From: Streptomyces sp. ISL-87
Lineage (GTDB): Bacteria; Actinomycetota; Actinomycetes; Streptomycetales; Streptomycetaceae
Direction: 5' to 3'
Assembly (NCBI RefSeq): GCF_018614095.1
Contig: NZ_JAGGOY010000008.1
Span: forward strand, 124,001 to 188,000
DNA: 64,000 nt
Shown here: positions 17,422 through 53,909 of the stretch, piece after piece
How the letters are laid out: every line of letters begins with the position of its first letter
Position numbering within the stretch: position 1 is the first letter of the stretch
The notes under the pieces: model-generated
What the model was told of the DNA's origin: nothing
The model's database searches: none
The model's input: the letters and a program-made list of their open reading frames with translations, nothing else
Program-made: the position numbers and the translations under genes

Positions 17422-18903
17422 CTACGTGTTGGCCATGTCCACGAACCGCGAATAGTGGCCCTGGAAGGCCACGGTGATGGTGGCCGTGGGGCCGTTACGG
17501 TGCTTCGCCACGATCAGGTCGGCCTCGCCCGCGCGGGGCGACTCCTTCTCGTAGGCGTCCTCGCGGTGCAGCAGGATCACCATGTCGGCGTCCTGCTCAA
17601 TCGAGCCCGATTCACGCAGGTCGGAGACCATCGGCTTCTTGTCGGTGCGCTGCTCCGGACCACGGTTCAGCTGGGACAGCGCGATCACCGGGACCTCCAG
17701 CTCCTTCGCCAGCAGCTTGAGGTTTCGGGACATGTCCGAGACCTCCTGCTGGCGGCTCTCGGGACGGCGCGAGCCGCCCGACTGCATCAGCTGGAGGTAG
17801 TCGATGACGACGAGCGAGAGGTCGTTGCGCTGCTTGAGCCGGCGGCACTTGGCCCGGATCTCCATCATCGACAGGTTGGGCGAGTCGTCGATGTAGAGGG
17901 GGGCGGCGGAGACGTCCGGCATCCGGCGGGCCAGCCGCGTCCAGTCGTCGTCGGTCATCGTGCCCGAGCGCATGTGGTGCAGGGCCACCCGGGCCTCCGC
18001 CGACAGCAGGCGCATCGCGATCTCGTTGCGGCCCATTTCGAGGGAGAAGATGACGCTCGGCAGGTTGCTCTTGATCGAGCAGGCGCGGGCGAAGTCCAGT
18101 GCGAGTGTGGACTTACCCATGGCGGGTCGGGCCGCGATGACGATCATCTGGCCCGGGTGGAGCCCGTTGGTGAGCGAGTCGAGGTCGGTGAAGCCGGTGG
18201 GGACGCCCGACATCTGGCCACTGCGCGAGCCGATCGCCTCGATCTCGTCGAGGGCGCCTTCCATGATGTCGCCGAGCGGCAGGTAGTCCTCGGAGGTCCG
18301 CTGCTCGGTGACGGCGTAGATCTCGGCCTGGGCGCTGTTGACGATCTCGTCGACGTCGCCGTCCGCCGCGTATCCCATCTGCGTGATCTTCGTACCGGCG
18401 GCGACCAGGCGCCGCAGTACCGCCCGCTCGTGGACGATCTCCGCGTAGTACTCGGCGTTCGCCGCCGTTGGTACCGACTGGACCAGGGTGTGCAGGTAGG
18501 AGGCCCCGCCGACCTTGCTGATCTCGCCGCGCCGGGTCAGCTCGGCGCCGACCGTGATCGGGTCGGCCGGCTCCCCCTTGGCGTACAGGTCGAGGATGGC
18601 CTGGTAGATCGTCTCGTGCGAGGGCCGGTAGAAGTCGTGGCCCTTGAGGACCTCGACCACGTCGGCGATGGCGTCCTTGGACAGCAGCATGCCGCCGAGC
18701 ACCGACTGCTCCGCGTCGAGGTCCTGCGGCGGGACGCGCTCGAAGCCACCGCCCGCGCCGTCCCAGGAGCCGCCCTCGCGGCCCCCGTCACGGTGGTCGT
18801 CGCCGCGGGAGCGGCCTTCGCTGTTACGGCGCGGACGGGCGGGCAGACGGTCACCTGGACCGCTGTCGGCCCAGGGGTCGTCCATGGGCTCGGGCATACT
18901 CAC
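17422..18903 (-). CDS. dnaB: Replicative DNA helicase DnaB
   Basis: 493 residues. A charged Gly/Arg/Asp-rich N-terminal extension (about 1-53) precedes VPPQDLDAEQSVLGGMLLS, the start of the conserved N-terminal domain; the RecA-like domain has Walker A ARPAMGKST (about 256-264), Walker B LSLVVIDYLQLM and ALSQLNRGPEQRTDKKP. ATP-driven hexameric helicase unwinding DNA at the fork, loaded at oriC with DnaA and a loader (see dciA). No intein interrupts it. GTG 18903 is preferred over ATG 18897 because GGAGGAGG lies at suitable distance. The upstream region has a striking DnaA-box cluster. Confidence 0.96.
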   Translation of the reverse strand: MSMPEPMDDPWADSGPGDRLPARPRRNSEGRSRGDDHRDGGREGGSWDGAGGGFERVPPQDLDAEQSVLGGMLLSKDAIADVVEVLKGHDFYRPSHETIYQAILDLYAKGEPADPITVGAELTRRGEISKVGGASYLHTLVQSVPTAANAEYYAEIVHERAVLRRLVAAGTKITQMGYAADGDVDEIVNSAQAEIYAVTEQRTSEDYLPLGDIMEGALDEIEAIGSRSGQMSGVPTGFTDLDSLTNGLHPGQMIVIAARPAMGKSTLALDFARACSIKSNLPSVIFSLEMGRNEIAMRLLSAEARVALHHMRSGTMTDDDWTRLARRMPDVSAAPLYIDDSPNLSMMEIRAKCRRLKQRNDLSLVVIDYLQLMQSGGSRRPESRQQEVSDMSRNLKLLAKELEVPVIALSQLNRGPEQRTDKKPMVSDLRESGSIEQDADMVILLHREDAYEKESPRAGEADLIVAKHRNGPTATITVAFQGHYSRFVDMANT

Positions 18904-19337
18904 CGGGCCGCCTCCTCCCGTCCGCAACGCGGACCTCGCCGTGCCAATCTTTCTACGACACGGCTCTGACATTTGGGGCACCCGAATCGGCACGTGACAC
19001 GTCGGGCAACGCCCAACGGTAGGGCCGCGAGCGACGTCAGCCAATCTTGTTATCCACAGGCTGTGTGGATGAGATGTGGACGACCGCGCCAATGCTGTGG
19101 GTAACTCCCCCGAAGCTGTGCACGGACCGGGGGACGAGGCTGTGGACAAAATCACCCGGGGCACCCCAACACCCCATTTGACCTGGGATTTCTTGTTCCG
19201 CTGGGTGCCTCGGAGAAAAATCTTGGCCACTGTCTCAAGATCGCCTCCAACGGGGTGCGAAGAACGCACAAGTCAACGCGTTGGTAAGGATCACAAATGC
19301 CTTGCATCCATTACCTGTGGAAGATTAGATTGAGCAC
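18904..19337. promoter_or_regulatory. dnaB/MATE divergent intergenic region with DnaA-box cluster
   Basis: 434 bases between divergent dnaB and a MATE gene. Within 100 bases it holds five DnaA-box-like 9-mers: TTATCCACA 19050-19058 (plus); on the minus strand TCATCCACA 19064-19072, TCGTCCACA 19075-19083, TTACCCACA 19096-19104 and TTGTCCACA 19141-19149. A weaker TCTTCCACA is at 19317-19325. Such density outside oriC suggests DnaA control of dnaB or a DnaA-titrating site. No gene is apparent. Confidence 0.75.
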
Positions 19338-20675
19338 ATGACACAGGCCCCTCCCGCACCGAAGGCTGCCCTGAGACGGCACGACCGCGAGATACTCGCC
19401 CTCGCCGTCCCGGCCTTCGGTGCGCTCGTCGCCGAACCCCTGTTCGTGATGGCCGACAGCGCCATCGTGGGTCACCTCGGCACCTCACAGCTCGCCGGGC
19501 TCGGTGTCGCCGCCGCTCTGCTCACGACCGCCGTGAGCGTCTTCGTCTTCCTCGCCTACGCCACCACCGCGGCCGTTTCCCGACGCGTCGGCGCGGGCGA
19601 CCTCCAGGCGGCCATCCGGCAGGGCATGGACGGGATCTGGCTCGCCCTCCTGCTCGGCGTGGCCGTCATCGCCGTCGTCCTGCCCGCGGCGCCCTGGCTG
19701 ATCTCCCTCTTCGGGGCCTCCGACACCATCGCCCCGCACGCGATCACCTATCTGCGGATCTCCGCCGTGGGCATCCCGGCCATGCTCATGGTGCTCGCCG
19801 CCACGGGCGTCATCCGTGGCCTCCAGGACACCCGGACCCCGCTCTACGTGGCCGTCGGCGGCTTCGCCCTCAACGGCGGCCTGAACTTCGCCCTCGTCTA
19901 CGGCGCGGGACTCGGCATCGCCGGCTCAGCCTGGGGCACGGTCATCGCCCAGTGCGCCATGGCCACCGCCTACCTCATCGTGGTCGTACGCGGTGCCCGG
20001 AAGCACGGGGCCTCCCTGCGTCCCGATACTGCGGGCATCCGGGCCTGCGCCCAGGCCGGCGTACCTCTGCTGGTCCGCACCCTGTCCCTGCGCGCCGTGC
20101 TGCTGATCGCCACCGCCGTCGCGACCCGGCTGGGCGATACCGAGATCGCGGCCCACCAGATCATGCTCTCGCTCTGGTCCCTGCTGGCTTTCGCCCTGGA
20201 CGCGATCGCCATCGCCGGACAGGCCATCATCGGCCGCTACCTGGGTGCGAGCGACACCGAGGGCGCCAAGGCCGCCTGTCGGCGCATGGTGCAGTGGGGA
20301 ATCGCCGCGGGCATCGTGCTCGGCCTGCTGGTCGTCCTGGCCCGCCCGGTGTTCATTCCGCTGTTCACCGGCGATCCCGCGGTCGAGGACGCCCTGCTGC
20401 CCGCCCTGCTGGTCGTGGCACTGTCCCAGCCGGTCTCCGGCATCGTGTTCGTCCTCGACGGGGTTCTGATGGGCGCGGGCGACGGCCGTTACCTCGCCTG
20501 GGCGATGCTGCTGACGCTCGCCGTGTTCACACCGGCCGCACTGCTCGTCCCGGCCGTCGGCGGAGGCCTGACCACCCTCTGGTGGGCCATGACGCTGATG
20601 ATGCTGGTCCGGATGGCCACCCTCCAGCTCCGTGCCCGCTCGGGCCGCTGGCTGGTCGCGGGGGCCACCCGCTGA
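19338..20675 (+). CDS. MATE-family efflux transporter (DinF type)
   Basis: 445 residues with 12 predicted membrane helices in two repeats of six. Family segments: PAFGALVAEPLFVMADSAIVGHLGTSQLAGLGVAAAL in helices 1-2, GVIRGLQDTRTPLYVAVGGFALNGGLNFALVYG, EIAAHQIMLSLWSLLAFALDAIAIAGQAIIGRYLG and VLDGVLMGAGDGRYLAWAM. It exports cationic or amphipathic drugs using Na+ or H+ gradients; the substrate is not predictable. ATG 19338 has no strong ribosome site upstream. It reads away from dnaB, and its stop is 5 bases before parS site 4. Confidence 0.88.
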   Translation: MTQAPPAPKAALRRHDREILALAVPAFGALVAEPLFVMADSAIVGHLGTSQLAGLGVAAALLTTAVSVFVFLAYATTAAVSRRVGAGDLQAAIRQGMDGIWLALLLGVAVIAVVLPAAPWLISLFGASDTIAPHAITYLRISAVGIPAMLMVLAATGVIRGLQDTRTPLYVAVGGFALNGGLNFALVYGAGLGIAGSAWGTVIAQCAMATAYLIVVVRGARKHGASLRPDTAGIRACAQAGVPLLVRTLSLRAVLLIATAVATRLGDTEIAAHQIMLSLWSLLAFALDAIAIAGQAIIGRYLGASDTEGAKAACRRMVQWGIAAGIVLGLLVVLARPVFIPLFTGDPAVEDALLPALLVVALSQPVSGIVFVLDGVLMGAGDGRYLAWAMLLTLAVFTPAALLVPAVGGGLTTLWWAMTLMMLVRMATLQLRARSGRWLVAGATR

Positions 20676-20680
20676 AGCGA

Positions 20681-20696
20681 TGTTTCACGTGAAACA
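20681..20696. other. parS: parS site 4
   Basis: Exact TGTTTCACGTGAAACA immediately downstream of the MATE gene. Confidence 0.93.
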
Positions 20697-20726: not shown

Positions 20727-20762
20727 CGGTCCGATGTTTCACGGTCGGTCCGATGTTTCACG
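20727..20762. repeat. 17-bp direct repeat including a parS half-site
   Basis: CGGTCCGATGTTTCACG occurs at 20727-20743 and 20746-20762. The second copy continues into the full parS site 5; the first breaks off after TGTTTCACG, leaving an isolated half-site. Confidence 0.85.
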
Positions 20763-20769
20763 TGAAACA
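20754..20769. other. parS: parS site 5
   Basis: Exact TGTTTCACGTGAAACA between the MATE gene and the rplI terminator. Confidence 0.93.
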
Positions 20770-53058: not shown

Positions 53059-53909
53059 GTCAGACGCATCGCAGGGCGCTCCCGGACTGCTTCGGGGGCG
53101 CCCTTCTTCGTCCGCACGCCCCTGACCTGTTCGAATGCGCCCCCAAAGGAGCAACTCATCCACAGATTGGCGGACTTTCTTCCGTCCACAGCCTGGGGAC
53201 GGGTTCCTTCACCCACAATCTGTCCACAGGGGTGCCGGGTGAGGCCCCATCAGTCCAGGTCAGCTGCCTGTGGAATTGTGCGCAAGGATTGTCCACAGCC
53301 TGTGGACAGAAAAATCATCCACAGGCTCATCCACCCCTCTGTCCACCGGCGACCCACAGGTTGCCGCATCCTGTGCACAGGATCTGATGAGTTACCCACA
53401 CCGTTGTCCACTGTTCGGCAACAAGGGGCCCGCTCTCACCTTCCGGAGTGAAAGCGGTCACACGCAGGTCGACGTTTGGGCTGTGGAGTACTGGGGAAAA
53501 GCTGGGGACGCAGCTGTGGAGGAGTGGGGGTCTCCTGGGGACAGCCTGTGCAGAAGTTTTCGTTCTCCACAGCCACACCGTGTTGTCCACCGGTGTCACC
53601 CACAGGGTGTGGGGATAAAAAACGAGGGCTGACCTGGGAAAACGGGCTTATCCACCGTTTCCACAGGCCCTACTACTACCCCCATAGAGAGTTAGCCCGG
53701 TTTCGGTTTTCAAGCAGGTCCTGTGCACAACTCGGTGGGCGGCCGCCCCGACGCCTCGCTCCCGACTTGACCTCCGGCAGCGACGACTGTCGGCGCCGTA
53801 CGTCAGACTGGTCCCCGGCATCGAGGCTCCGAGCCATCGAGGGCATCGAGGCATCGAGCCGACGACGAAGGCCGGCCAGACGAGCGAGCAACAGCAGGAG
53901 GCGGTTCCG
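53059..53909. other. oriC: Chromosomal replication origin oriC
   Basis: 851 bases between dnaA and dnaN with about 20 DnaA-box-like 9-mers in both orientations. Closest to consensus: TTGTCCACA 53289 (perfect); CTGTCCACA 53220 and 53301 (minus); TCATCCACA 53156 and 53315; CCGTCCACA 53182. Weaker: TTACCCACA 53392, TTGTCCACT 53404, TTCTCCACA 53563, TTGTCCACC 53583, TTATCCACC 53648, GTTTCCACA 53657; minus strand TACTCCACA 53482 and TCCTCCACA 53515. A relatively AT-rich stretch (GGATAAAAAACGAG, about 53612) may be an unwinding element. Dispersed weak boxes match known Streptomyces origins. It is the only region like this in the window. Confidence 0.97.
53074..53103 (+). terminator. dnaA terminator
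   Basis: GGGCGCTCCCG (53074-53084) pairs with CGGGGGCGCCC (53093-53103), one G-T pair, followed by TTCTTC; 16 bases past the dnaA stop. Confidence 0.8.

Follow-up and report, generated by a model that had tools for sequence, protein, structure and literature searches.

A conserved array of predicted DnaA boxes stands at a fixed place relative to the putative dnaB promoter in Streptomyces and related genera

Predicted DnaA boxes between dnaB and a divergent transporter gene

We analysed a stretch of 64,000 nucleotides from Streptomyces sp. ISL-87 (contig NZ_JAGGOY010000008.1, positions 124,001 to 188,000), hereafter the window, in which dnaB is separated from a divergent MATE gene by 434 bp (18904-19337). 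The genes and elements of this region, together with the oriC used for comparison, are given below in window coordinates.

17422-18903, minus strand: dnaB, replicative helicase, with a GTG start and the Pfam domains DnaB and DnaB_C
19016-19021, minus strand: putative -10 of dnaB, TACCGT, after a 17-bp spacer from the -35 (predicted)
19039-19044, minus strand: putative -35 of dnaB, TTGGCT (predicted)
19050-19058, plus strand: inverted DnaA box B5, TTATCCACA, its end 5 bp ahead of the putative -35
19064-19072, minus strand: extra DnaA box, TCATCCACA, 11 bp past B4, a feature of the window's group (12 of 127 same-genus loci)
19075-19083, minus strand: DnaA box B4, TCGTCCACA
19096-19104, minus strand: DnaA box B3, TTACCCACA; most relatives have TTCTCCACA
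19117-19125, minus strand: weak DnaA box B2, CCGTGCACA, 24 bp past B1 in the dnaB direction
19141-19149, minus strand: DnaA box B1, the first in the dnaB direction, TTGTCCACA, within one mismatch of TTRTCCACA
19178-19186, minus strand: window copy of the GCAGGTCAG motif, which is common to oriC, reading CCAGGTCAA
19214-19220, minus strand: T tract TTTTTCT, the upstream edge of a conserved block
19316-19324, minus strand: weak box B0, TCTTCCACA, just upstream of the MATE gene
19338-20675, plus strand: MatE-family (MATE) transporter gene, divergent from dnaB
53059-53909, strand not assigned: oriC, the dnaA-dnaN intergenic region, used for comparison
53629-53637, minus strand: oriC copy of the GCAGGTCAG motif, reading CCAGGTCAG

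A preliminary description of this DNA had noted five DnaA-box-like 9-mers within 100 bp between dnaB and the divergent MATE gene, and these were borne out at the positions listed. The weak box B2 was also found to be conserved, with the form TTGTGCACA in several other genera, and many other genera have TCATCCACA or TCGTCCACA at the position of the weak box B0.

A known RNA element in this region was rejected, as the Rfam search of 18400-19700 returned no match up to E = 1 and the fold of the window's dnaB leader was not better than that of shuffles (z = -0.10). Conserved complementary words, GCCGTG..CACGGC and GTCCGC..GCGGAC, were observed in the dnaB leader (18898-18970, minus strand), the latter just before GGAGGAGG. 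A plasmid search with the intergenic region as the query gave no match. The sequence TGTTTCACGTGAAACA, which we take to be the ParB site parS, occurs in eleven exact copies in the window, such as 20681-20696 and 20754-20769, with none expected by chance, and a second DnaB-like gene, 58% identical, is present in the window's own genome (C17:11217-12614).

The boxes are clustered beyond chance

We counted as a box any 9-mer within one mismatch of TTRTCCACA, and as a strict box TTRTCCACA itself. The whole window contains 32 boxes, and the window maximum is found at 19050-19149, where two strict and three one-mismatch boxes are predicted in 100 bp. The density had been claimed to equal that of oriC, and the comparison holds, with 5 boxes per 100 bp at dnaB versus a peak of 4 at oriC calculated from the box positions. 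Dinucleotide shuffles of the whole window (n = 100) contained 7.42 boxes on average and at most 2 per 100 bp, a value reached in 3 of the 100. Chance clustering was thus ruled out, as more than 2 boxes per 100 bp never appeared in the shuffles. The 8.14-Mb assembly contains 45 strict boxes, two of which lie in the dnaB array, and a pair of strict boxes was found in at least 170 of the 394 class-wide genomes.

Besides the dnaB array, close groups of strict boxes were found at three other places in the assembly. Three identical TTGTCCACA boxes in 15-bp steps lie upstream of a RecD2-type helicase gene, 41-79 bp from its start (C66:22275-22313; L031 5276-5314). Another box group lies between the prephenate dehydratase and seryl-tRNA synthetase genes (C145:89138-89435; L033 5127-5539), which we assume is perhaps the D78 cluster of S. 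coelicolor, and three boxes are located just behind a rhomboid-family gene (C65:159548-159599; L032 4549-4600), presumably perhaps the H69 cluster.

Two strict and three one-mismatch boxes in 100 bp, 34 kb from oriC, are what a titration locus, with several strong boxes outside oriC, would look like. Such a locus, like D78, the B. subtilis clusters or datA of E. coli, would bind DnaA soon after its own replication and delay re-initiation, and its place at dnaB would be incidental. Reviews cite the S. coelicolor clusters near oriC as repressing untimely initiation. The geometry of the array and its neighbours in other families, described below, bear on this explanation.

Array geometry is conserved in the genus and in most of the family

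For comparison, regions upstream of dnaB were taken from 127 of 150 searched same-genus genomes, with 23 left out owing to low-ranked, partial or split matches, and from 39 usable loci of 16 other genera of the family; L142 (163 bases) and L179 (347 bases) were excluded from the family and class counts. The DnaB matches in some genomes, such as G169, G179 and G088, fall into two parts inside a single long open frame, the pattern expected of inteins.

We found the direct first box B1 and the inverted TTATCCACA (B5) at one of three spacings in 126 of the 127 same-genus loci. Read in the dnaB direction, the spacing is 0/45/66/80 in 103 loci, 0/45/66/77/91 in 12 loci, the window's group, where a step of 11 bp leads to the extra box, and 0/45/80 in 11 loci. 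The remaining locus has three boxes, including the B3-B5 spacing, and a weaker first box. The B3-B5 spacing is preserved in all 127 same-genus loci and in 32 of the 39 loci from the other family genera; the seven exceptions comprise five loci with another layout, one that is off by 1 bp, and one with B5 only. When named genomes were scanned for the geometry, at least 118 stretches were found, and among the 80 matches listed 79 were from Streptomyces and one was from Actinacidiphila.

A gap-free alignment of 147 loci on B5 gave mean consensus frequencies of 0.91 for B1, 0.92 for B2, 0.95 for B4, 0.94 for the -35 and 0.86 for the -10, with 0.79 for the spacers. Since the alignment was anchored on B5 and on the CCACA of B3, conservation at these letters is inflated and was not taken as evidence.

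The array follows the putative promoter of dnaB

B5 was found in 161 of 167 loci and is followed, in order, by 5 bp, TTGGCT (or TTGGCG, TTGGCC), mostly 17 bp, and TACCGT, TACGGT or TAACGT. The -35 test was passed by 148 of the 161 loci, including all 127 same-genus loci, and nine of the 13 that failed this strict test have TTGG at the same place. Between B5 and the putative -35, the gap is 5 bp in 147 of the passing loci and 4 bp in one, so that the boxes hold a conserved place relative to the predicted promoter in 147 of the 161 loci with B5. A TANNNT -10 at 17 or 18 bp was present in 146 of the 148 passing loci and missing from two. The distance from the putative -10 to the start codon is variable, ranging from 110 to 194 among the 127 same-genus loci. 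The fixed gap between B5 and the promoter, combined with the variable distance from promoter to start codon, indicates that the array tracks the putative promoter and not the gene start.

A box this close to a -35 could serve repression as well as activation, and repression is the nearest rival to activation. A DnaA complex on B5 would then bar RNA polymerase from the -35 until DnaA leaves. The 5-bp distance between the end of B5 and the -35 is compatible with such a block, and the dnaA promoter is described as repressed by DnaA in several bacteria in a review. However, the nearest box stands 5 bp off and overlaps no promoter hexamer in 147 of the 148 loci passing the -35 test, and we regard repression of dnaB by DnaA as quite improbable.

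Boxes stay with dnaB beyond the family

At the class level, 118 genomes were searched, and 40 loci outside the family were taken, of which 39 were used. The 450 bp before the start of the DnaB match contained 107 boxes in these 39 loci versus 5.15 in shuffles, and the next 750 bp upstream contained 16. The check on conservation upstream of dnaB in other actinobacteria, which the preliminary description had suggested, thus gave a positive outcome, with boxes kept in the genus, in most family loci and, beyond the family, in 38 of the 39 loci (two or more boxes in 30, three or more in 20). The array spacing is not preserved outside the family.

Of the 39 outside-family loci, 14 have a MATE-like neighbour upstream of dnaB, 15 have an RplI-like one and 10 have neither, and boxes are present in 14/14, 14/15 and 10/10 of these, respectively. 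The persistence of boxes whatever the upstream neighbour indicates that they belong with dnaB. We rejected the MATE gene as an explanation of the boxes, since they are also located near dnaB where RplI or neither gene is upstream.

These comparisons also speak against a locus that merely titrates DnaA. Titration needs sites but not a fixed spacing to a promoter, and the boxes are found near dnaB in other families despite a different upstream gene. We therefore consider it unlikely that the array is a titration locus placed at dnaB by accident.

A motif common to the dnaB region and oriC

About 35 bp upstream of B1, counted from motif start to box start, lies the end of a conserved block, TTTTTCT.ctgCACAGcC.gTGGAtgg..aA...gCAGGTCAg. 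CAGGTCA, read towards dnaB, occurs in 110 of the 127 same-genus loci (5.5 on average in shuffles, 0 on the opposite strand), 35 of the 39 other family loci (2.0 and 0, respectively) and 12 of the 39 class loci (1.85 and 1); GCAGGTCA was likewise found in 12 of the 39 class loci, with a shuffle mean of 0.4. In the 161 loci with B5, the distance from the motif to B5 is -115 in 121 and -127 in 11; another 8 lie no more than one base from these values, and 21 do not have the motif. The start of GTGGA and the start of GCAGGTCAG are 15 apart in all 113 dnaB loci having both within 30 bp. A strict 39-letter pattern of the block was present in 6 of 20 selected genomes, which all belong to the same genus, and in neither the window's genome nor any outside the genus, showing that the block is degenerate when taken in full. 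The window has 35 words at most one mismatch from GCAGGTCAG, where 26.1 are expected, so the evidence for this motif lies in position and pairing only, not in word rarity.

At oriC, the order of the unwinding module is TAG trios, TGTGGATAC, GTGGATAAC, 9-10 bp and GCAGGTCAG. The 59 oriC loci were matched allowing up to 3 mismatches in 18 and any spacer from 4 to 17; GTGGATAAC plus GCAGGTCAG with a spacer of 9-11 was found in 30/30 family loci and 20/29 other actinobacterial loci, and a match with this spacer was never seen in five shuffles per set. Some family oriC loci have a second CAGGTCA on the other strand, further upstream.

Scanning 61 family genomes for GTGGA-N10-14-GCAGGTCAG gave 101 matches, comprising 21 at dnaB, 17 at oriC, 16 at the inferred oriC place and 47 elsewhere. 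All 21 matches at dnaB are 24 letters long and all 33 at oriC or the inferred oriC place are 27 or 28 letters long, the latter with the starts of GTGGA and of the motif 18-19 apart. The 47 scattered matches are about at chance level, because a reversed-pattern control gave 42; one of them, G199:C1:2518, resembles the oriC copy. The exact pattern was not found in the window's own genome, where the copies are imperfect (CCAGGTCAA at dnaB and CCAGGTCAG at oriC). The dnaB region and the actinobacterial oriC unwinding module thus both carry GTGGA followed by GCAGGTCAG at a set distance, but this distance is 15 at dnaB versus 18-19 at oriC, and the dnaB region has no TAG trios.

The DnaA array and the motif common to oriC might suggest a second, oriC-like replication origin. 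A DnaA-trio unwinding module was not detected at dnaB, however, as neither TAGTAG nor CTACTA occurs in the 400 bp before dnaB in any of 166 loci, whereas the oriC of the window has CTACTA twice. A second origin was rejected on this basis, and we hold it to be highly improbable.

GCAGGTCAG is not a DnaA box, as it does not have the CACA core. To our knowledge, no protein is known to bind this word, and nothing related was found, judged by title, in the literature on it with oriC and DnaA. We tentatively raise the possibility that the region controlling dnaB resembles a part of oriC in its build, with GCAGGTCAG as the site of a DnaA partner or of a special DnaA complex, so that a single nucleoprotein could read one cue at both the origin and dnaB. 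The motif offers a concrete bait for a protein that would act at both oriC and dnaB.

A candidate DnaA-controlled promoter of dnaB

We consider it likely, from the sequence comparisons above, that the region is a control platform of dnaB transcription, with a DnaA-controlled promoter that is probably activated and with titration as a side effect. The array and the GCAGGTCAG motif make up a block with almost no indels, which stops 5 bp short of the putative promoter in all same-genus loci studied and in most of the other family genera. Most boxes lie about one or two helical turns apart in the same orientation, which suggests that DnaA would bind cooperatively, starting at the strong boxes B1 and B5. 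From B5, which spans about -49 to -41 relative to the predicted start, DnaA would be within reach of RNA polymerase, and activation of dnaB is predicted from this; preferring activation to repression is a guess from the box position. The dnaB gene would be activated when DnaA, probably ATP-DnaA, is plentiful, and helicase supply would consequently follow initiation capacity. The array sites would also bind some DnaA and hence titrate it, and such titration probably occurs as well. Through B0, DnaA may also hold back the MATE promoter.

Coupling of helicase supply to initiation by DnaA had been proposed alongside titration, and the rigid spacing, the promoter lock and the boxes staying with dnaB favour the coupling. 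Should dnaB of actinobacteria be under DnaA control, the supply of helicase would be tied to initiation, a link of importance in Streptomyces, whose hyphae hold many chromosomes in each compartment. The conserved promoter-locked array makes this idea testable.

Comparison with known DnaA-box clusters

In S. coelicolor, Smulczyk-Krawczyszyn and colleagues reportedly described in 2006 three DnaA-box clusters near oriC, named H69, H24 and D78; the study is said to have dealt with their DnaA binding and titration, with D78 foremost. We assume that cosmid H24 carries dnaB. The box groups at dnaB, at the prephenate dehydratase and seryl-tRNA synthetase genes, and at the rhomboid-family gene would fit the three cosmids, so the dnaB array is probably H24, a match that depends on the cosmid names. 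What the array shares with H24 is a DnaA-box cluster near oriC in Streptomyces, whereas the promoter lock, the rigid geometry and the motif common to oriC come from the present analysis.

The dnaB gene of S. coelicolor is SCO3911, and its mRNA increased after 5-aza-dC, according to PMC10148868. In Caulobacter crescentus, which belongs to another phylum, predicted DnaA boxes are likewise located upstream of dnaB, and the gene is a member of the DnaA regulon (Hottes et al. 2005, as cited in PMC8203912). The E. coli datA and the oriC-proximal B. subtilis clusters are also chromosomal DnaA-box clusters outside oriC, but their reported role is repressing untimely initiation, and the review excerpts on them mention no link to a helicase promoter.

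In the literature on DnaA sites at dnaB in Streptomyces and actinobacteria, covered by titles and abstract openings and including few subscription papers, a promoter-locked array at dnaB was not found, and neither was a motif common to dnaB and oriC in the literature searched. The DnaA-box cluster itself is probably already known, and the lock of the array to a putative promoter, the spread of the boxes over the class and the motif common to oriC are probably new.
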